Shown: positions 14,257-28,095, numbered from the stretch's first letter. The stretch is DNA of 64,000 nt from Frischella perrara (GCF_000807275.1 NZ_CP009056.1:1365192-1429191); one strand, 5' to 3'. Notes: generated by a model from the sequence alone, not told the origin. Made by a program: numbers and translations.

Positions 14257-17584
<3,328 letters not shown>

Positions 17585-17887: not shown

Positions 17888-19285
17888 ATGTTTTCAAATC
17901 TGTTATTACCATCAAAAGCAATATGCCACAATAATTTTATTTATTTCAAGCTACTGTTTATTTGGTTGAATTCGATCGTTTTTTGCCCCTATTCTTATGC
18001 TGAAGTTATCTCAACAATGACGAATATAATTCAAGGTACTGCCCCTTACTTAACTTTTGATGGCGATCTAACACCGGCAAGTAATACTGATGAATTACTT
18101 ACTATTCAATTACCTGACGGAACAATTTACTCAAAAACCAACAATCAGTCTTCACTATCCAATCCCATTATTCTTCCTGCAAATGGAATCAAACTAGGCG
18201 ATATAATCACGTTTATTCCAGCAGGACAAATTTCCATATCGATGACTGATTTATTAAATAATAACGCTTTTTGGCATGATTTAGACGGTGATGACGAAAT
18301 GATTGCAACTGGAAATTTAAGGCTTGTGGCTCATGATATTAAAGGAAATGAGATAAGTTTAAATGATCCATTTGTCGACTGTTATGCCCCTTATAGTATA
18401 ATGCTACAAAACGACGCAACTATCTTATCAACAACTTATGGTTTCCCTAATTCAACATTAATCAATGCAAATAACGTTATTTACTATATTACACCGCCGA
18501 AAGGAGCGTGTAGTTACGCTGCGCAACCTAATTTAACATTAAGTAATAGCCACAATAATGGCTCGCTGGGTTCGAATTATTCAGGACCTACTGCTGAATG
18601 GGACGATGTAAAAGGCTTCAAACTTCAAGATATTAATAATCACAAGCTAAACTTCCCAACAACAGGTGCAAATAACTTCTTTTTTTTGATGGATCTCATG
18701 AATACTGTAGCCAACGAGGTAAACTATGTTAAAACCCCCTCCAATTCGGGTATAAATCTAAGCATTACTTCTGAAGGTGGAAGTAAAATTAAAGTTCGTT
18801 TAATGGGTCCCAAAGCTGGGGCAAGTTTAAACGAAGCTATAACCGCCGTACCAACGTCATTCATTCTATATTCAGATAAAGAAAAACAGAATAAAATCTA
18901 CAGTTTTACCATAAAAAAATGGTTTATCGCCCAAACCGGTGATGGCATTAGTTATCATGATGCTACACAATATTGTAATAATTTGGGATATCAGCTACCT
19001 AAAATTGAACAACTAACTAATGCGTCTTTGGACGATATAAATGGTAATATAGCCGGTCAACCGAACCATTATCAGCGAAGGATTGGAGGAGGATTATTTT
19101 CAGAATGGGGTGAAGCAAATGATGAATATTATCGTGGCAGCAACTTTAAAAACAATACTAATTATTGGACACTAGCTTCCTCGCAAGAGGATCTATTTGA
19201 GGATAAAGATCTAAATACCAATGAACCTATTAATTTAGATACAATGGAGCTTAACAACCAAACTGTTTGTATCAGTCCTGATTAA
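17888..19285 (+). CDS. Secreted adhesin-like protein, paralogue 1
   Basis: A 465-residue exported protein of unknown function. A long N-terminus with a hydrophobic stretch (about 18-37) ends in YSYA|EV, a credible signal peptidase site near residue 39. The body begins with NIIQGTAPYLTFDG, contains DLDGDDEMIATGNLRL and two conserved cysteines (VDCYAPYS, GACSYA). The last 110 residues (about 350-465) carry a Y-x-D-A-x-x-Y-C-x-x-x-G-Y-x-L-P pattern, GGGLFSEWG, NYWT and a final Cys, like the lectin-like domain that ends several enterobacterial invasin/intimin-type adhesins. It is a clear paralogue of the convergent gene at 19474-21033. No beta-barrel or anchor is visible, so how it attaches is unknown. 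Confidence 0.65.
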   Translation: MFSNLLLPSKAICHNNFIYFKLLFIWLNSIVFCPYSYAEVISTMTNIIQGTAPYLTFDGDLTPASNTDELLTIQLPDGTIYSKTNNQSSLSNPIILPANGIKLGDIITFIPAGQISISMTDLLNNNAFWHDLDGDDEMIATGNLRLVAHDIKGNEISLNDPFVDCYAPYSIMLQNDATILSTTYGFPNSTLINANNVIYYITPPKGACSYAAQPNLTLSNSHNNGSLGSNYSGPTAEWDDVKGFKLQDINNHKLNFPTTGANNFFFLMDLMNTVANEVNYVKTPSNSGINLSITSEGGSKIKVRLMGPKAGASLNEAITAVPTSFILYSDKEKQNKIYSFTIKKWFIAQTGDGISYHDATQYCNNLGYQLPKIEQLTNASLDDINGNIAGQPNHYQRRIGGGLFSEWGEANDEYYRGSNFKNNTNYWTLASSQEDLFEDKDLNTNEPINLDTMELNNQTVCISPD

Positions 19286-19473: not shown

Positions 19474-21033
19474 CTATGGTGTAACACACCCAATATTTTG
19501 TTGGTAATAAAGGTAACTATCAAGTACCGTTCCTGTCCAATTTATTATTATTGGTCTTCCGTTTACTGTACTATTAACAGCATTATTAATAATAAATGAT
19601 GTCCAATAGCCAAATGGTTGAGCTACTGCCGAAGGTCTCTTATCCTGATTCCCCCATTCATTATATAACCCACCAACCCAACGATCTCCTGATCGGTAAC
19701 TCAATTGTCTATGAAACCAATTAATATCTTCTGGAAGCCCTCCTTCCCATCCGAGACGTTTATTAGTTCCATTTGAGTAATCGTATGGTGCAGGGAGTCT
19801 ATATCCACTAATACTATTACAATATTGTACAGCCTCACTATAGTTCATAGTTTCAGTCTGGGGCTTTTGAATATACCAACGTTCAATTTTGAAACTATAT
19901 AATAATTGGTTATGGCTCTTATCAGCATAAATTTTAAATAAAGAAGGTGAAAAATGTTTATTCGCCGAATTAACATTAGGTCCATTAAACAAAATTTTTA
20001 ACACTGTCAATTTACGTTTACTTGGAGAATCATAAGAACCAGGAATTTCTTTTTCAGACGATAATGATAAACTCACCCCTCTACCACTTTCCGCCATTAC
20101 AGTTGTACCATTAGCGGCAACAACTTGTTCGGGAGTAATACCGGCTAATACTAAATAGAAAAAATAACCGTCTACAGCCACGGTAGGAAAATTAGAACTT
20201 GGATTATTAATATCCCCTACTTCAAAGCCAACCTCATCTATAAATCCTTTTCCTGCATACATACTGCTTCGACTTTTATAGTCTATTAATGTCGCATAAC
20301 ATACGTATGGCTTAATTATTTGAGGAGAAACATAGTAGGTGTGACTTACACTAGAAAGATTAGTTACCTTTGGGAAACCATACTGAGATTGCAGACTAAT
20401 ATCTTCCCCTGTTGTCATAATTAAAGAATAAGGGGCTTGACAAGGATCTAATTCTTGAATTGAATTTTCACCAATTTTTTTAGTAATATCATTATCATTT
20501 CTATCTAACCATTGTAAACGTATTTTACCAGTAGCATGTAAATTTCTATCACCATCTTCATCTACTATGGTAGTAGATGAGGATCTAATGATGTCATTTA
20601 ATAAAACTCTTGGATAAATTCCATTACCTGCTGATGAAGGTGGGACAATAGTTTGAAAATGATTAAATTTTACTGATTGAGGGACTATTATTGGCTGTGT
20701 TAGCGTTGAATGATCTTCTTTAGCATTAATCACTCTATCATCAGCTATTTTCAACCACAATAACCCTTCCATTGTTAGTTCTTTCGTTACACCACCGTCT
20801 AGTGATAAATAAGGCTCTGTTCCTTGAATTACGTTTGCAGTTCTGACGCTTAAAGCATTGGCATGATTAATAGCTAAACAAAAGCTTAAGCATAAAATCA
20901 TGATTTTAATTATTAATGAATAAGCAACTAAAGATTTTAAAACTACGTCTATATTATTTGGAAATTTAAAGTAATTTACTTTCTTAATAGATGAAAAAAA
21001 ACGGTACTTTAATACATTAGTTTCCATATGCAA
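19474..21033 (-). CDS. Secreted adhesin-like protein, paralogue 2
   Basis: A 519-residue protein aligned along its whole length with its neighbour: NVIQGTEPYLSLDGG, DEDGDRNLHATGKIRL, DPCQAPYSLIMTT, YGFPKVTN, and a C-terminal lectin-like block with YSEAVQYCNSISGYRLP, GGLYNEWG, FGYWTS and IGCVTP. The N-terminus is unusually long: about 37 polar residues precede a hydrophobic helix (about 38-58) ending in NHANA|LS, so either the signal peptide is extended or translation starts further in. The pair points at each other (3' ends 188 bases apart). It looks like an inverted duplication followed by divergence. Function is unknown; adhesion or glycan binding is an inference. Confidence 0.65.
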   Translation of the reverse strand: MHMETNVLKYRFFSSIKKVNYFKFPNNIDVVLKSLVAYSLIIKIMILCLSFCLAINHANALSVRTANVIQGTEPYLSLDGGVTKELTMEGLLWLKIADDRVINAKEDHSTLTQPIIVPQSVKFNHFQTIVPPSSAGNGIYPRVLLNDIIRSSSTTIVDEDGDRNLHATGKIRLQWLDRNDNDITKKIGENSIQELDPCQAPYSLIMTTGEDISLQSQYGFPKVTNLSSVSHTYYVSPQIIKPYVCYATLIDYKSRSSMYAGKGFIDEVGFEVGDINNPSSNFPTVAVDGYFFYLVLAGITPEQVVAANGTTVMAESGRGVSLSLSSEKEIPGSYDSPSKRKLTVLKILFNGPNVNSANKHFSPSLFKIYADKSHNQLLYSFKIERWYIQKPQTETMNYSEAVQYCNSISGYRLPAPYDYSNGTNKRLGWEGGLPEDINWFHRQLSYRSGDRWVGGLYNEWGNQDKRPSAVAQPFGYWTSFIINNAVNSTVNGRPIIINWTGTVLDSYLYYQQNIGCVTP

Positions 21034-22006
21034 TCGTATCCTACTTTTATAATTTTATTTTTGAGATCAAAAAAAATATAAATTTCTATCTATATTTAAG
21101 CAAATTTAATATGGTAAAAATTTGTTTAGTTTTTTAATATTAGTTTATAAATTAAAAAAATTATCAAAAAACTAAAAATTATTTTTATTAGAAATAAACA
21201 TTTTTTTCATCTTGAAATTTCAAAAATAAATGTATTTATGATGTATTTAATTGTCGAAGGTAAACTAATTATTTTGAAAATCTGACTATATAATGACTTA
21301 ATTTTATTTAGTAAAATATTTTTAATTGTTCAATCGCTAGCTTTTTTATTATTTGAAATATTCCTTTTTATATATGTATTGTTTAGATAATCGATTATTT
21401 TATAGTTTTCTTAATTATCTTGACGCTTGTGGTTAATGTTAACTCTTTATTTGCAAATTTAGTAATAAAAATAGAATTATTTTTTGGAATAATTATTTTA
21501 TTATAAACAATTTCTGTAATTTTTCTTATTTTTTTAGATGTTTTTAAAAAGTAATGGAAGAATAAGCGTTAAAGATAAGGTTAAATACATATCTAATTTT
21601 TCAAAAAAATTAAATGTACTTTGAATTTTTTAAACAAAAATAAACAGATTTTATTTTTAACAATCCTTTATCTGGCACTTTAAAATAGTCAAAGCTGAAG
21701 GTGAAAAATTGAAGATAATTACACTAATGCACTCAATTCACAAAAACTTTAAATTACATCAAAGGGTGATTAAGTGCATATTTTATTTCCATTGAAATTA
21801 ACTGGATTAAAAAATGTCTTTTATCATTAATAGTTTATAGTAGTCTAATTAAACTGATTATATGATACATACTTATCCTACATGAACGCTTATTAAGGTG
21901 TGATAAAAATTCATAACTATTCTATGTTTACTACTCCTTTTCAACGATTAATTAAACATAACTTAAGTTGTCATTTTTGACTTAATCTCAGAGATAGTAT
22001 CGATTT
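21034..22006. other. Long AT-rich gene-free region
   Basis: Nearly 1 kb between the second secreted paralogue and the Mu-like regulators. I find no ORF with coding character, no RNA gene and no insertion sequence. One short inverted repeat (ATGCACT 21727-21733 / AGTGCAT 21773-21779) is present. Composition is even more AT-rich than the surroundings, as in promoter-rich silenced accessory DNA. Confidence 0.5.
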
Positions 22007-22594
22007 TCATAAATGCGTCACAATGGCGCCCAAAATAAATCCCGTCAATAATATCGCTAGAGTCGGTCTAGTATTAGTTTTGAATAAGCTTTTAGTTTGT
22101 TTAAAGAGACTTTGGTTGTTTAAGTTTTGAAGGTTTGACAACTCTTCAATATAATTTAGGATATTTTGTAATTGAATTTTATTAAGTTGTTTAAGATTAG
22201 ACGTTCCAAATTGCCTTGTTCCATAATAATTCATCTTTTCTTTTATATCAATCCGGTTATCTATTTCGATCAAAATTAAATGAATTAGCATGTTGCAAGT
22301 AGCTTTTTCAGCTGCTACTTCAATTTCATTTATCAAAAATTTTTCGGCAGTAGAATATTGAGATACTGTTATCTCATTGATACTACAAACGCCTAATAGA
22401 GCATGCAATTTAAGCCAAATCTCTCTTGCACTAAATTCACCATATCCTTCAATATCTGAAATTAAGCTATGTAAAGTTCTTCTTTGAGCGGGAACTAATG
22501 GGCGACAATCATTTTCAACACCATTAGTAGTTATATTATAAATATTTCTGCCAGCTATTTGCTCGGCTACATTATCCTCAACTTTTATTATCAT
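22007..22594 (-). CDS. Prophage regulator partner with membrane-anchored C-terminus
   Basis: A 195-residue protein. It starts with EQIAGRNIYNI, a motif that also ends the preceding repressor. Residues about 32-90 (LVPAQRRTLHSLISDIE ... EIWLKLHALLGVCSINEIT) resemble the C-terminal module attached to many phage repressors and antirepressors of Pasteurellaceae and enterics. It ends with a single hydrophobic helix (PTLAILLTGFILGAIVTHL), suggesting membrane attachment. The start overlaps the upstream repressor gene by 17 bases, with GAAGG as ribosome site, so the two are translationally coupled. The function is unknown; it may modulate repressor activity. Confidence 0.6.
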   Translation of the reverse strand: MIIKVEDNVAEQIAGRNIYNITTNGVENDCRPLVPAQRRTLHSLISDIEGYGEFSAREIWLKLHALLGVCSINEITVSQYSTAEKFLINEIEVAAEKATCNMLIHLILIEIDNRIDIKEKMNYYGTRQFGTSNLKQLNKIQLQNILNYIEELSNLQNLNNQSLFKQTKSLFKTNTRPTLAILLTGFILGAIVTHL

Positions 22595-23012
22595 TTTTTA
22601 TTTGCCTTCTTAATGTATAAATATTACCGCCAGCTATTTGTCCATTATGGATACTATTATTAGATATATTAACACCTGTTTTTTGTTGTGCTGTTCCTGC
22701 TGTTAGTGCGCCCAAAGCTGCAGCCTTAACGGCTAAAGGGGAAGAACGAAATAAAAGCAATAGCTCTTGCTCATCGTTTGTTAAATCTAACGTATTTCCC
22801 TCACCAGTAAGTAACCAAGTTGGATCGATATTAAATTTAACCATTAAGATAAAGATGACATTTGCATCAATAACCCTATTCCCTGATTCATATCGAGCAA
22901 TACTCTGTCTATCTAAACCTAATTCTTTCGCAAAAGCTGTTTGTGAAAGGTTACCTCTGACTTTTTTTAACCTTTCACCGACTTGTAATTTATCTAATTC
23001 GATTAAATGCAT
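22578..23012 (-). CDS. XRE-family phage-type repressor
   Basis: About 144 residues. The N-terminal helix-turn-helix (residues about 8-65) reads GERLKKVRGNLSQTAFAKELGLDRQSIARYESG, and is followed by PTWLLTGEG, a typical junction in lambda/Mu-like repressors. There is no S24 peptidase domain; the C-terminus is short and ends with GQIAGGNIY. The frame is open to an ATG at 23039, but that lies inside the operator. The ATG at 23012 has an AGG about nine bases upstream and starts MHLIELDKL, so I choose it. It is divergent from the Ner-like gene across an operator with palindromic ATCCATTTGGAT. Confidence 0.7.
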   Translation of the reverse strand: MHLIELDKLQVGERLKKVRGNLSQTAFAKELGLDRQSIARYESGNRVIDANVIFILMVKFNIDPTWLLTGEGNTLDLTNDEQELLLLFRSSPLAVKAAALGALTAGTAQQKTGVNISNNSIHNGQIAGGNIYTLRRQIKNDNKS

Positions 23013-23052
23013 CCAAAAACACCTTGACATAGCATCCATTTGGATACAATAT
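23011..23052 (+). promoter_or_regulatory. Early rightward promoter and repressor operator of the Mu-like island
   Basis: TTGACA (23024-23029) with a CAATAT or TACAAT -10 around 23045-23052 points towards the plus-strand early genes. A perfect palindrome ATCCA-TT-TGGAT (23034-23045) occupies the spacer, and a further half-site ATCCA lies at 23011-23015. This is the arrangement expected for repressor control of an early phage promoter. Confidence 0.6.
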
Positions 23053-23105
23053 GCCTATATAAATTATAAATTACTTATTAATAACTAATATTAACGGAGA
23101 ATAAA

Positions 23106-23306
23106 ATGCCAAAAATACTCACTCCAGAACAAGTTAAACAGAAATTCCAACAAAACGGAAAGACCATTAAATCATGGGCAATTGAAAATGGTTACCATCC
23201 TGTCGTTGTTTACAATGTGCTTAACGGCTTGAGCAAAGCTCATCGTGGAAAAACACATGATATTGCAGTTAAACTTGGTCTTAAGCAAACACATAAGTAC
23301 AAGTAA
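23106..23306 (+). CDS. Ner/Cro-like phage DNA-binding protein
   Basis: A 66-residue basic protein with a single helix-turn-helix: GKTIKSWAIENGYHPVVVYNVLNG, followed by a basic segment ending in AVKLGLK. Proteins of this kind sit as the first rightward gene next to the repressor of Mu-like prophages and fill the Ner/Cro role of turning down early transcription. A ribosome site (GGAGAATAAA) precedes the ATG. It is the first gene transcribed from the operator-controlled promoter. Confidence 0.7.
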   Translation: MPKILTPEQVKQKFQQNGKTIKSWAIENGYHPVVVYNVLNGLSKAHRGKTHDIAVKLGLKQTHKYK

Positions 23307-23345
23307 TTGTAACAGTTTTTCGTATACAGCAAAAGGTAGAAAAAT

Positions 23346-23651
23346 ATGAGTGGATCACAAATTTCAACTTCCGGAACAAGAATATTAAAAGTTTTAAAGG
23401 CTTTGAAAGGACATACCTTAACTGGATTATCTAATGGTGAAATTGCCAAAATACTAAACGAATCACCTGTAAATATAACAAGATCGCTTCAAACATTAAT
23501 TGAAGAGGGACTAGTTATTAAACTTGAGAATGGATCATTTGCACATAGTATTCAAATGTTACAAATTGCTCAAGCACATGCGATGCATTTAAATCAAATC
23601 CATAAAAAAATAATTGATATAAATCAAGAAATTATGAATGACGCAAGTTAG
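23346..23651 (+). CDS. IclR-like winged-helix phage regulator
   Basis: A 101-residue protein. Residues about 10-65 form a winged helix of the IclR/MarR type (LSNGEIAKILNESPVNITRSLQTLIEEGLVIKLENGSF). The rest is a short helical tail (AQAHAMHLNQIHKKIIDINQEI) that could mediate dimerisation. Proteins of this type accompany transposition genes in BcepMu-like phages. It overlaps the following ORF by 14 bases if that ORF uses the ATG at 23638. Confidence 0.65.
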   Translation: MSGSQISTSGTRILKVLKALKGHTLTGLSNGEIAKILNESPVNITRSLQTLIEEGLVIKLENGSFAHSIQMLQIAQAHAMHLNQIHKKIIDINQEIMNDAS

Positions 23652-24342
23652 GATCAAGGAAATGTTTATAGCAAGAAATTCATATTCTAAAGCGATCAAA
23701 TCTACAATATTTTATCAGCAAGGAATTAACAAGGTAATGAACACTCTAACCACTTTGGTACCGGCTGCTTATGTTTTTAAGAAAGAATATGTTTATATAA
23801 ATCAATTGGATAAAAATAAAAAGTCGAAAAAAAACATTAACATTTTACTTATTTCTGTAACGAGTTCTATATCTTGGCAATACTTTAGTTTAACGATTAC
23901 TAGACTTAAATTTTCAATTAAAAAGGTATTAGAGGTAATATCTCAAATGGATATTAATCATCGCCAAATAAGTCAAAATGATGGACATTTAAAATTCAAA
24001 AATCCATCATTTTTTAATGTTACTCAATCAAATAGTAATGCATTATTAATTAAATCAGCCTTAGCATTAATCACTAAAAATAATCATGAAAAAGCACTGT
24101 TAATCAAAAAAAAGTACTCTCGCAGATTACAAAAAGAGAAATTAAAACAGAATTGTAGCCTTTTTCAAATTTATATCTTATTAAAATCATTACTTAGAAA
24201 ATTAACAATGCTACAGCAAATTATAAATGTGAGCGCTATGAATATGAGAAAAATTTATCGTTTATTTTGGATAGTTTTCACAATCAATATAGAAACTAAT
24301 GCCGTCATCAATAGTAATGTTATGACCACTAATACTAAATAG
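23638..24342 (+). CDS. Unknown protein in the transposase position of the Mu-like island (ORF 1)
   Basis: A 234-residue product (226 if it begins at the ATG at 23662). I recognise no family. It is rich in Lys, Asn, Ile and Ser, with an amphipathic helical segment (about 145-195, LALITKNNHEKALLIKKKYSRRLQKEK) and a hydrophobic stretch near 205-220 (IYRLFWIVFTINI). No DDE or DNA-binding motif is evident. In Mu-like phages the large transposase gene A normally occupies this slot between regulators and the MuB-like ATPase. Its AT content is higher than that of the flanking genes, so it may be an insertion, or an extremely diverged or decayed remnant. Confidence 0.45.
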   Translation: MTQVRIKEMFIARNSYSKAIKSTIFYQQGINKVMNTLTTLVPAAYVFKKEYVYINQLDKNKKSKKNINILLISVTSSISWQYFSLTITRLKFSIKKVLEVISQMDINHRQISQNDGHLKFKNPSFFNVTQSNSNALLIKSALALITKNNHEKALLIKKKYSRRLQKEKLKQNCSLFQIYILLKSLLRKLTMLQQIINVSAMNMRKIYRLFWIVFTINIETNAVINSNVMTTNTK

Positions 24343-24360
24343 TAAGAATCGGTGATTAAA

Positions 24361-25071
24361 ATGATTATGTTTACTATTAATAAATTTTTAATGACATTTA
24401 CAGCTTTATTTAATCAAATTATTGATAGTCAATTTGGTTTCATTTTTGCATTAACACGAACACAAAAAACAAAGTATTTATATTATTTAAATCATGTAAT
24501 TAGCAAATTAATTATTGACGATTATCTTATCTCAACAAACATTTTTACCTTTAATAACAATTGTTTACCTTCTGTTATCAACAAGGCTGATCATTTTGAC
24601 CACATTAATTTGCAAGCAGATTTATATATTATTGATAAAAAAAATGAATCTAAAAAGAAGAAAAAATCCAAAACGCTAACGCTGTTTACGATCATGGATC
24701 AAATAATTTTTAGGCAAGCCAATAAACCATTTTTATTAATCTATAATTTATATAACCACCTAATATATAATTTTTCTGTTATTTATCATCTTGATAATTT
24801 AGAAAATCATTATAAATGTAATGATTTTCATTCATTAAAGTCTTTCAAATCTATTTTTACAATTTTTTCTATCCATAGCGACACACTAAAAATAATTAAT
24901 ACACAAAAAAAGAATTTAGCCATTGAAAAAAATCATTGGTTAAACAATCGTTGGTTAAACAATCGTTATAAAAATGATATCCAAGGATTAGAAGATAATA
25001 GCTTGAATAAATTAAATAAAAAAACTATTACAATCGAAAACGGAACAACCAGATTAAGGAGCGTCAAATAA
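24361..25071 (+). CDS. Unknown protein in the transposase position of the Mu-like island (ORF 2)
   Basis: About 236 residues, starting from the ATG at 24361 (a GTG nine bases earlier is also in frame). It is dominated by Phe, Ile, Leu, Asn and Lys, with a lysine cluster KKNESKKKKKSK near residue 100 and a repeated WLNNR encoded by an exact 15-base tandem duplication. No family, signal peptide or catalytic motif is recognised. Its stop overlaps the start of the ATPase gene by one base (TAATG), and an AAGGAG for that gene lies inside it, so it is in the same early operon and is probably translated. Confidence 0.45.
   Translation: MIMFTINKFLMTFTALFNQIIDSQFGFIFALTRTQKTKYLYYLNHVISKLIIDDYLISTNIFTFNNNCLPSVINKADHFDHINLQADLYIIDKKNESKKKKKSKTLTLFTIMDQIIFRQANKPFLLIYNLYNHLIYNFSVIYHLDNLENHYKCNDFHSLKSFKSIFTIFSIHSDTLKIINTQKKNLAIEKNHWLNNRWLNNRYKNDIQGLEDNSLNKLNKKTITIENGTTRLRSVK
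24936..24965 (+). repeat. 15-base perfect tandem duplication inside ORF 2
   Basis: TTGGTTAAACAATCG occurs twice in direct succession (24936-24950 and 24951-24965). It adds five codons in frame (WLNNR twice), which implies the frame was kept after the duplication. Confidence 0.85.
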
Positions 25072-26309
25072 TGCTAAAATTAAAAAGAGTTATGAAGCAA
25101 TTCAATATTACCCAAGCGCAATTAGCAAAGCACATTGAATACAAAGGCAATAGCATTAGCCAAGCCGTGATTAATTTGATTGTTAATCGTGATATATGGC
25201 CACGTTCAATTTCTCGTAATCAACTTGAACAACAGATTAAGAAAGCACTAATTAAGTTAGATGTCGAAAATCACTATTTAACTGATATTTTCGAACCAGA
25301 TTCGGGGGTTGAAAACGATTTAGTCAATACACCTCCACCTTTGAGTTTAACGAGATCATTAAATCAGGAATCGATTTATAGGTTATTAAGAAAACAGAAA
25401 ATTAGTCAAGAAACGCAAACATATTTTAATATACCGCGCGATCCATTCACCAACGAAATAACGCAAAATATTGATGTCTATTTGTCAGATGATATTCGTA
25501 ACGTGCGGGATTCAATGCGTCTAACGGCAAAAAATGGTGGAATGCTAGCTGTAATCGGTGAGTCAGGTAGCGGTAAATCGGTTTTATATCAAGATTTAAT
25601 TAATTGGATTAACGTAAAAAATGAGCCGATTACTGTCATTGCTCCTTATATTTTGGGATTAACGGATAATGAACTCAAAGAAAACACTCTCAATAGTACA
25701 GATATGAGTGTTGCTATTATCCGTGCCATTAATCCACATATAAAACCGAGTCTTAATCCTGAGGAATGTGCTAGACAAATGTATGAACTACTTAAGAATA
25801 GTGCACTTACCGGTCGTAAACATTTATTGATTATCGAAGAAGCTCATCAATTATCAATTTCTATGCTTAGGCAGTTAAAACATTTCTATGAGTTGCAGGA
25901 AGGATTCAAAAAATTATTATCGATTATTTTAATTGGTCAATTAGAATTACAAGCCAAACTTTCAGAAAGTAATCCTATTTTACGAGAATTAATACAACGC
26001 TGTGAAATCGCCAAATTAAAACCACTTGATTTAAAAATTGAAGACTATATTAAACACAAATTCGCGCGAATAGATATGGATTATATAACATTATTTGATT
26101 CCTCAGCATTTGATGAAATTATGAATCGTTTTCGTATTGTTTCTAATAATGGTGATATCAAATATGTTCATTCTTTATGTTATCCCTTAGCTGTAAATAA
26201 TCTGATATCCAATGCCTTGAATACCGCCACACGTCTAGGAGCTCAGAAAATAACCAGAGAAATCATTATTGAGTGTATTAAGGAATATGGAGGAGTGAAT
26301 GAATATTAA
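25071..26309 (+). CDS. MuB-like transposition ATPase (AAA+ with N-terminal HTH)
   Basis: A 412-residue AAA+ ATPase of the kind encoded beside the transposase in BcepMu-like phages and related to MuB/TnsC/ExeA. A small N-terminal helix-turn-helix (about 10-60, NITQAQLAKHI) is followed by an FNIPRDPFTNE linker, Walker A GESGSGKS (163-170), Walker B LLIIEEAH (252-259) and an arginine-bearing RELIQRCE sensor region. In Mu, MuB selects target DNA and delivers it to the transposase. AAGGAG lies eleven bases upstream of the start. No transposase gene accompanies it here, so it may be an orphan or serve another purpose. Confidence 0.8.
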   Translation: MLKLKRVMKQFNITQAQLAKHIEYKGNSISQAVINLIVNRDIWPRSISRNQLEQQIKKALIKLDVENHYLTDIFEPDSGVENDLVNTPPPLSLTRSLNQESIYRLLRKQKISQETQTYFNIPRDPFTNEITQNIDVYLSDDIRNVRDSMRLTAKNGGMLAVIGESGSGKSVLYQDLINWINVKNEPITVIAPYILGLTDNELKENTLNSTDMSVAIIRAINPHIKPSLNPEECARQMYELLKNSALTGRKHLLIIEEAHQLSISMLRQLKHFYELQEGFKKLLSIILIGQLELQAKLSESNPILRELIQRCEIAKLKPLDLKIEDYIKHKFARIDMDYITLFDSSAFDEIMNRFRIVSNNGDIKYVHSLCYPLAVNNLISNALNTATRLGAQKITREIIIECIKEYGGVNEY

Positions 26310-26568
26310 CCACCGCGTCCATAATAGTATTAATGCCATCAATCAGGCTGTTAAGTTATTATCACGTGAAGGTTTTATCATCATTGGTTTTTACCATGAT
26401 TCACAATCTAAACCAACAGTTGAGATTGATTATGCTCCAAAATGTAATACTTATATTACTATTGGACAAGCCATTTATTATCGCCATGAAGGTTATTATC
26501 GATTTGGACAATTTGAATTAGAAGGTTGCCGAATAATTTGGAAAGAACGTAATATTCGTCGTTCATAA
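26299..26568 (+). CDS. Small phage-island protein of unknown function
   Basis: An 89-residue protein that starts inside the last codons of the ATPase gene (11-base overlap, GGAGGAGTG as ribosome site), so expression is coupled. It has an early helix (INAINQAVKLLSREGF) and a beta-rich remainder with many aromatic residues (IYYRHEGYYRFGQFELEGCRIIW). Similar short genes follow the MuB gene in Mu-like prophages. I cannot assign a function. Confidence 0.6.
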   Translation: MNINHRVHNSINAINQAVKLLSREGFIIIGFYHDSQSKPTVEIDYAPKCNTYITIGQAIYYRHEGYYRFGQFELEGCRIIWKERNIRRS

Positions 26569-26580
26569 TAAAAATAACAA

Positions 26581-26634
26581 GGCGATTTAGTAACATTGAT
26601 TATAAATATAAAATAAATTTTACTGTAAATCGCC
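26581..26634 (+). repeat. Long hairpin between the small gene and mor
   Basis: GGCGATTTA (26581-26589) pairs with TAAATCGCC (26626-26634), with a 36-base AT-rich loop. It lies 12 bases after a stop codon and is followed by ATTAAATTTTC. It may be a terminator dividing early genes from the Mor-like gene, or an operator. Confidence 0.4.
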
Positions 26635-26716
26635 ATTAAATTTTCAGCTACAACACTTAAGTACTACAAAAACATATCAAACTTAGTAACCTAATATATT
26701 TTAAAAGGAGAATTTT

Positions 26717-27049
26717 ATGGCTAAATCTGCAATGTCAATTAAACGTCACCATTTATTAACTCATATTGCCTTATCTGTTACTAATCAAGCCCTTGACTTT
26801 GGTCTAAGTCAAGAAGTTGCTTCGCAATTAGGTGATAACGTGGCAAATACTATTTCAGAACTATTCGGTGGTCAAAATTTTACTTTTCCACGTGATCATA
26901 TTTTTAAATTAAATCAACGAGATCTCGAAATATATGCTGAATTTAGAGGAAATAACTACAATGAACTGAGTAATAAATATAACATGACTGAAAGGGGAAT
27001 AAGAAAAGTTATCGATCGTATTCACAAACGTCAATTAAATGAAAAATAA
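26717..27049 (+). CDS. Mor/C-family phage transcription activator
   Basis: A 110-residue member of the Mor transcription activator family, which turns on middle and late genes in Mu. The family pattern is clear: ELFGGQNFTFPRDHI, then DLEIYAEFRGNNYNELSNKYNMTERGIRKVIDRI as the C-terminal helix-turn-helix. A strong AAAGGAG precedes the ATG. It is the last gene of the Mu-like block; no head, tail or lysis gene follows, so the middle/late operon it would activate is absent from this locus. Confidence 0.82.
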   Translation: MAKSAMSIKRHHLLTHIALSVTNQALDFGLSQEVASQLGDNVANTISELFGGQNFTFPRDHIFKLNQRDLEIYAEFRGNNYNELSNKYNMTERGIRKVIDRIHKRQLNEK

Positions 27050-27126
27050 TTATGATTCTAAATTGCAATCTATGTGGTTAATACTTGATTAAATATCGCA
27101 ATTTAATAATTTTTGTTAATTAGACT

Positions 27127-27309
27127 ATGATTGGTCATTCACTTCTTGGGTTATTGATTCCTCCCAATAATAAAGGTAAAACCCATTATCTGTTACATTT
27201 TTAGAAATACATTACAAATAATACCCGTTATGCTCTTGATCAATTCATTGATTTAATTGAACAAGAGCTTAAGCCAGTGAAACTATTTTTCTCCCGAGAG
27301 CTGTTTTGA
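27127..27309 (+). pseudogene. Decayed gene fragment, possibly a LysR-type regulator C-terminus
   Basis: An open frame from the ATG at 27127 to TGA at 27307, broken by one TAG at 27202. Its second half reads RYALDQFIDLIEQELKP, resembling the last helix of LysR-type effector domains, and the first half reads LLIPPNNKGKTHYLL, close to the IPP...YP region before it. It overlaps the 3' end of proC on the opposite strand. The family call is tentative. Confidence 0.35.
27232..27268 (-). terminator. Hairpin downstream of proC
   Basis: GCTCTTG-A-TCAATT pairs with AATTGA-A-CAAGAGC (27232-27245 and 27255-27268), a 13-pair stem with one mismatch, 15 bases after the proC stop on the minus strand. There is no long T run. 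It coincides with the coding debris on the other strand. Confidence 0.45.
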
Positions 27310-28095
27310 GCGATTTACACATGCTTCAACCGCATTCATTATCGCTGCTCTGAAGTTATTTTGTTCAAGTGTTTGAACGCCTTCAATAGTAATACCGCCT
27401 GGTGAACATACCATATCTTTTAGTTCACCTGGGTGTTTATTTGTTTCTAACATCAGTTTAGCTGATCCCATAACTGTCTGAGCTGCAAATTTATAGGCTT
27501 GTTTACGTGTCATCCCCCCTTTTACTGCACCATCCGCTAGAGCTTCAATAAACATAAAGACAAAAGCAGGACCACTTCCACCAACGCCTGTTGCTGAATG
27601 GACTAACGATTCTGGTATAACTTCGGTTAATCCAATACAATTTAATAAACCTCTAACCGTAAGAAGCTCTTCGGGACTAACTTCCGTATTAGGTGTAAGC
27701 GAACAGATAGCTGAATTAACTAAAGCCGGTGTATTAGGCATAACTCTCACAATCTTTTGTTCATAACCAATGATAGCTTCGATCATTTTTATAGTCACAC
27801 CTGCGACAACAGACACAACAACAGTAGATTTTTTAAGTTCTTTTTGAATTTCAGCTAAAACTTCATTAATATTCTGTGGTTTAACAGCAATAAAAACGAT
27901 ATCAGACTCTTTTGCTACTTCTTTTGCTGATGCTAAAACATTTAAATCATAACTCTCTTTTAATTTTTCACCATTCTCAGGATGAATATCATAAACATTG
28001 ATTTGAGAAGCCGGAATAAATTGGCTGGCAATAATTCCATGTAAAATCGCACACCCCATATTTCCTAGCCCAATAAATCCAATACGTTGTTCCAT
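27283..28095 (-). CDS. proC: Pyrroline-5-carboxylate reductase
   Basis: Last step of proline synthesis, an NAD(P)H-dependent cytoplasmic reductase. It has 270 residues (E. coli 269). The N-terminal Rossmann motif GFIGLGNMGCAIL, AVKPQN, MPNTPALVN, the GSGPAFVFMFIEA dimerisation helix and DMVCSPGGITIEGVQ near the C-terminus are all present. GAGGA lies seven bases before the ATG. In E. coli proC is close to yggS/yggT; here it is separate. Confidence 0.97.
   Translation of the reverse strand: MEQRIGFIGLGNMGCAILHGIIASQFIPASQINVYDIHPENGEKLKESYDLNVLASAKEVAKESDIVFIAVKPQNINEVLAEIQKELKKSTVVVSVVAGVTIKMIEAIIGYEQKIVRVMPNTPALVNSAICSLTPNTEVSPEELLTVRGLLNCIGLTEVIPESLVHSATGVGGSGPAFVFMFIEALADGAVKGGMTRKQAYKFAAQTVMGSAKLMLETNKHPGELKDMVCSPGGITIEGVQTLEQNNFRAAIMNAVEACVNRSKQLSGEK

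Follow-up and report, generated by a model that had tools for sequence, protein, structure and literature searches.

A stub of a B3-like transposable prophage beside proC in Frischella perrara, with stop-free relics of genes P and A

Gene content of the locus and its phage relatives

The window analyzed here is a stretch of 64,000 nucleotides (nt) from the closed, 2.69 Mb genome of Frischella perrara (NZ_CP009056.1:1365192-1429191), a bacterium kin to bee-gut symbionts, and the element in question is a stub of prophage early genes that occupies positions 22007-27049 of the window and is present as a single copy. The minus strand carries a gene termed R2 and a repressor gene, while the plus strand carries genes for a Ner-like protein and an IclR-type helix-turn-helix (HTH) protein, two frames termed X1 and X2, and genes for a MuB-type ATPase, a small protein, and Mor. 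Profile matches place the IclR-type regulator, the ATPase, the small coupled gene, and Mor where the initial annotation had put them, and that annotation was also right that the locus contains neither head nor tail genes and that proC follows the element directly. The features are listed below, with the expectation values (E) of their profile matches.

22007..22594, minus strand: R2, 195 amino acids (aa), adjoining the repressor (phrog_5825, E 1.9e-39)
22578..23009, minus strand: repressor (HTH), likely start 23009 (HTH_19, E 1.7e-11)
23024..23052, plus strand: putative early promoter, TTGACA at 23024-23029, 17-nt spacer, weak -10 element CAATAT
23106..23306, plus strand: Ner-like DNA-binding protein (phrog_925, E 4.4e-27)
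23346..23651, plus strand: IclR-type HTH protein (phrog_1368, E 1.3e-34)
23662..24342 (open reading frame, ORF, listed from 23638), plus strand: X1, stop-free relic of gene P (P profile match)
24361..25071 (ORF listed from 24352), plus strand: X2, stop-free relic of transposase A (A profile match)
25071..26309, plus strand: MuB-type AAA ATPase (phrog_296, E 8e-54)
26299..26568, plus strand: small coupled gene, overlapping the end of muB (phrog_2041, E 2.6e-15)
26569..26716, plus strand: 148-bp spacer, in place of about 2.5 kb (Gam and four more genes in relatives)
26717..27049, plus strand: Mor-type activator (Pfam PF08765, E 2.6e-28)
27283-28095: proC, chromosomal, next after Mor

A search with the window MuB protein returned ten copies from nine other genomes of the same family, the Orbaceae, and the surroundings of these copies are B3-like prophages with a common gene order; full-length relatives occur in Gilliamella-group genomes. 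Their left half holds, on the minus strand, structural and lysis genes, accessory genes, R2 (in some only), and the repressor; the plus strand then carries ner, the IclR-type gene, P (about 328 aa, phrog_4623), transposase A (about 593 aa, phrog_310), MuB, the small gene, Gam (phrog_491), four more genes, and Mor, with the right end about 150 bp beyond. Three full-length relatives measure 34.4-35.7 kb between ends of the form TGATG...TTTCA and are flanked by 6-bp target duplications (ataaag in G019, atatta in G016, and aatagg in G025), and a further genome, G011, holds two full-length copies that are 99.9% alike on two contigs, which suggests recent activity of this phage group. The G011 contigs C1 and C2 (L040, L041, L151-L154) start or stop exactly at the left end of a near-identical B3-like prophage; the assembly seems to have broken there because the prophage is repeated. 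The view that the relatives, too, are devoid of structural genes was rejected: the 20-kb pieces that suggested it ended at Mor, and the left halves carry those genes.

Among isolated phages, the closest are Pseudomonas phages Komp_PAO1_1 (A 59%, MuB 47%) and B3 (A 33%, MuB 37%), and Fc02 has the same gene order as the prophage relatives. The beetreviruses (B3, Fc02, Ps59, Komp_PAO1_1) and the Orbaceae prophages thus share the order repressor/ner, IclR-type gene, P, A, MuB, and so on to Mor at the end, and the stub MuB is 36-47% identical to its counterparts in the former and 62-67% in the latter. The IclR-type protein, about 57% identical to its phage B3 counterpart, belongs to a gene that is standard in B3-like early operons.

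The early region of phage Mu runs c, ner, A, B, and so on to mor, and the stub recalls it in its repressor/Ner switch, in a transposase followed by an AAA ATPase, and in its Mor activator. The architecture is nevertheless of the B3 type, with the structural genes of the relatives lying beyond the repressor, Mor last before the end, and the transposase of the relatives belonging to phrog_310, so the Mu order originally proposed gives way to a B3-like one. Homologous early genes in B3-like order, the test set for derivation from such a prophage, were found, and the locus is what deletion has left of the early genes of a transposable prophage of this B3-like kind.

Unlike the B3-like phages, the stub lacks ends, structural, lysis, and Gam genes, its transposase core is deleted, and its P and A are reduced to relics. 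Prophage-type ends, which the initial annotation had proposed to look for at the flanks, were found on neither side (21034-22006 and 27050-27283), where alignments were no better than shuffles. Structural, packaging, and lysis genes are absent: left of R2 nothing matches a phage, and the matches there are to host-type genes. Between the small gene and Mor, where relatives have the Gam block of about 2.5 kb, the stub has a 148-bp spacer, the inverted repeat or hairpin in this spacer is weak (z -1.6), and the Mor C-terminus is 10 residues shorter than that of phage Mor. An intact DDE catalytic core is absent from the locus, X2 aligning only to A residues 406-592 whereas the integrase-type core spans approximately residues 33-319, and no transposase of the B3-like type was found elsewhere in the host genome. 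An Rfam scan of the locus gave no match.

Neither the genomes of the family nor viral contigs yielded a similar stub. Searched singly, the window MuB and X2 proteins retrieved no close relative from the viral contigs; an alignment query against them gave 43 loci, of which those nearest to the stub were again the Gilliamella-type prophages. The comparison with related genomes envisaged at the outset could be made at the locus itself with the only other genome of the genus, which is without the element and whose proC has another neighbor. Elsewhere, G060 holds a copy (C1:1795622-1797396; 63-84% identity) with the appearance of ordinary decay, its transposase A containing three stops and being split over two frames. 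Another decayed B3-like remnant, in G009 (C15:14496-14825), has Mor and no transposase match.

Relic frames and retained genes

The initial annotation had seen no DDE transposase at the locus, and a recognizable one turning up in 23638-25071 on a profile search was named beforehand as an outcome that would refute the initial view. No functional transposase is there, but transposase sequence was recognized: the interval consists of remains of gene P and of the transposase C-terminal part, with the catalytic core missing. X1 scores 31-33 bits against the P profile (best of 500 shuffles 10), and X2 scores 20-23 bits against the C-terminal third of the A profile (best of 500 shuffles 4), with its C-terminal 190 residues in register; protein library scans (Pfam, phrog) of both frames gave no match. 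Read from ATG 23662, X1 is in exact register with P and retains the ancestral AGGAT ribosome site and start. X2, read from ATG 24361, has the start context GGTGATT, as in A of G016, lies 9 or 18 bases from the X1 stop depending on which of two possible starts is used, shows no convincing match to the A N-terminus over its first 46 residues, and ends with a stop that overlaps the muB start in TAATG, a junction identical in the phages.

In contrast with these signals, the encoded sequences have changed almost beyond recognition. Amino-acid identity is about 20% for X2 to A and 18-29% for X1 to P, whereas functional Orbaceae phages retain 77-99% in A and 56-97% in P among themselves, and genes neighboring the relics are 39-89% identical to their homologues. 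Differences at codon positions 1, 2, and 3 amount to.62/.49/.58 in X2 and.57/.41/.55 in X1, so that positions 1 and 2 have little protection, as against.25/.17/.52 in MuB,.22/.08/.48 in Mor, and.15/.06/.52 in Ner. The GC content of first codon positions (GC1) is 0.27 in X1 and 0.25 in X2, compared with a mean of 0.46 in other genes; it lies below that of all 44 ORFs of the window and all 220 ORFs sampled from 400 kb of the genome, and the relics' GC1-GC3 of 0.03 is likewise under all 220. It is first-position GC that separates the relics from short real genes, which amino-acid composition alone does poorly.

Neither X1 nor X2 contains a stop, whereas simulated neutral drift to comparable divergence gives approximately 11-15 per relic; every simulated sequence acquired at least one, and a Poisson estimate puts the probability of none at about 1e-5 to 1e-7. 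When stops were forbidden and the products realigned like the real sequences (without realignment the residual conservation of X2 is exaggerated), X2 could not be distinguished from neutral drift, and X1 was close to it. From the missing stops, the low GC1, and the neutral-like residue change we infer that X1 and X2 are open frames with conserved start signals and apparently little or no protein constraint. The claim of intact frames throughout consequently stands insofar as all frames are open, and falls insofar as X1 and X2 keep the frame but not the protein.

The retained genes behave otherwise. Identity to phage homologues is 67-89% in Ner and 73-81% in Mor, and MuB retains an intact Walker A (GESGSGKS) and Walker B (LLIIEE). 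Rough estimates of omega on the window branch are 0.029 for R2, 0.07 for the repressor, 0.008 for Ner, 0.043 for the IclR-type gene, 0.067 for MuB, 0.049 for the small gene, and 0.024 for Mor, with omega = 1 rejected for all seven (2dlnL 17-220; MuB 220, repressor 60). With omega held at 1, A needs a branch length of 4.6 and P one of 2.5, whereas 0.18-1.3 suffices for all retained genes but one; the exception is the repressor, which evolves fast in all these phages and needs 2.4. An equal time free of selection would need equal neutral lengths, and as the lengths differ, constraint has been unequal. As judged from these comparisons, the seven retained genes appear to be under purifying selection, while the P and transposase relics seem to have drifted close to saturation. 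Of the two origins initially offered, a recent deletion remnant is thus upheld as regards deletion of a B3-like prophage but not as regards recency, given relics near saturation beside neighbors with omega of 0.008-0.07, whereas a domesticated cassette is supported by the contrast between retained genes and relics without being proven.

Persistence of the stub and competing explanations

The reading that we regard as probable is that the stub can no longer move but has been maintained over a long time, and that in it the dead P and A persist as translated spacers for muB. In Fc02, the ner-to-mor operon forms one transcription unit, expressed from promoter pE under control of the repressor, and lysogens transcribe the gene that adjoins repc (PMC9936078). 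By analogy, the early operon of the stub would still be transcribed from its operator-controlled promoter, and the stub would comprise a constant repressor-R2 arm and a conditional Ner-to-Mor arm. Reading is near-continuous from X1 to the small gene, with overlaps at X2/muB and muB/small gene, and for this reason a stop in X1 or X2 would be expected to uncouple muB and expose untranslated RNA. Ribosomes would have to pass X1 and X2 for muB and later genes to be translated and to escape polarity, and selection would purge stops and frameshifts from the two frames while ignoring their residues. The relics are explained most simply if translation alone is what selection preserves; we propose more tentatively, as a suggestion that falls somewhat short of probable, that X1 and X2 are 'translation-only' genes, selected for uninterrupted translation (ribosome site, start, absence of stops, and the muB junction) and not for a protein.

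As to what the cassette offers its host, superinfection immunity or exclusion is the likeliest benefit, although this is a guess. The cassette may be kept for protection against related phages, with the repressor and R2 perhaps made constantly for immunity and exclusion, and Ner, the IclR-type protein, MuB, and Mor perhaps made when the switch is tripped; alternatively, Mor might have turned into an activator of host genes with a host regulon. Several observations weigh against the account as a whole: a defense-family search gave no convincing match; the identity of X1 exceeds that of the neutral simulation by a small margin (z 3.2); silent sites are saturated and the window branch includes time before mobility was lost, which is what makes the omega values rough; and, since the stub is present in one genome only, selection after the loss of mobility is derived from the contrast between genes and not from strains.

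An ordinary cryptic prophage in mid-decay, in which nothing is selected and the intact genes have simply not yet been hit, is in our view unlikely. Cryptic prophages are common, large deletions did take most of this phage, and the G060 copy with its three stops in A shows ongoing decay, but the neutral lengths are unequal (4.6 and 2.5 for A and P against 0.18-1.3, the repressor at 2.4 apart), and two long relic frames are still open at saturation. We give similarly little credence to the proposal that P and A gave rise to new functional proteins that evolve fast, for instance basic DNA-binding proteins, and that need for these products holds the X1 and X2 frames open. The frames do persist together with their starts and ribosome sites, and the slight excess of similarity of X1 to P would fit, whereas the GC1 and GC1-GC3 values beneath the entire ORF sample, the residue conservation of X2, which equals that of neutral drift with stops forbidden, and the failure of either frame to match a library all speak against it.

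A non-autonomous satellite moved in trans by a helper phage transposase while its own decayed would explain why A and P drifted for so long while other genes were retained, and the twin G011 copies indicate that the phage group is mobile; with no phage-type end on either side, one copy only, no helper-type transposase in the genome, and nothing like the stub in other genomes of the family or among viral contigs, it is very improbable. Scarcely credible, too, is a patchwork in which P and A decayed within an old remnant and recombination with infecting phages refreshed the genes around them: these phages are mosaic, the window Ner having its nearest counterpart in the G016 group and the window Mor in G011, but the genes flanking X1/X2 on either side differ strongly at third positions (0.45-0.60) from every known relative, which argues against recent import from a sampled phage, and the missing stops would be left unexplained.

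Other cryptic or 'domesticated' prophages have likewise lost lytic functions and retained a subset of genes (e.g., PMC7744054, PMC6379469), and one model predicts that the shortest prophages keep host-useful genes only (PMC7744054). Unlike them, the stub keeps two stop-free frames with almost no protein constraint, which is its unusual element and for which no precedent was found in the literature searched. Cryptic prophages being common, it is usually impossible to tell a selected stub from one that is slowly decaying. Here, X1 and X2 provide an internal clock in the same operon, whose protein constraint was lost long ago while that of their neighbors was not, and this allows selection on a transposase-less MuB/Mor/Ner cassette to be read from one genome. 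A general question follows, namely whether selection against polarity keeps dead operon genes open. If it does, an open frame alone is weaker evidence of a functional protein than annotators assume, and X1 and X2 would be a natural case of frames kept solely to carry ribosomes through an operon.

Switch region, R2, and adjacent genes

The divergent repressor and Ner genes around an operator, as first described, are borne out by library matches and by an operator-like dyad between them, GCATCCA-TT-TGGATAC (23032-23047), which sits inside the 17-nt spacer of the putative promoter. The repressor start, first placed at 23039, is on a reading of the sequence likelier to be 23009, a start with an AAGG site. 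A consensus promoter scan of the locus did not rise above shuffles, and the promoter is for that reason argued from comparison with relatives: the stub promoter aligns with the TTGACA, dyad, and CATAAT of the relatives, each of which has a dyad of its own, and the leader before ner (23065-23100) is conserved.

R2, 65-67% identical to six phage homologues, combines an N-terminal QIAGRNIYN motif, a Flk-like middle part, and a hydrophobic C-terminal tail. It resembles residues 17-146 of Flk, a flagellar regulator (NCBIfam, E 1.7e-13, though far below the curated cut-off), and structure prediction gave no usable model (pLDDT 39). The N-terminal motif matches QIAGGNIY at the C-terminus of the repressor, a pairing that, at the level of sequence, recalls the paired amyloid-signaling motifs of adjacent genes (PMC8086366). 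In the phages, the motifs of repressor and neighbor covary, QIAGGNIY occurring with QIAGRDIYN (L088), GQVSAENIYN with DQVAANNIYN (L107), GQISAGNIYN with EQVAGENIIN (L086), and EFAARDI with NVAGRDI (L120), and repressors without the motif adjoin neighbors without it (L091, L105).

Farther left in the window, 17888-19285 and 19474-21033 encode proteins of 465 and 519 aa that form one family and have no NCBIfam match; a similar 532-aa protein adjoins the prophage in L041, at 15434-17032.

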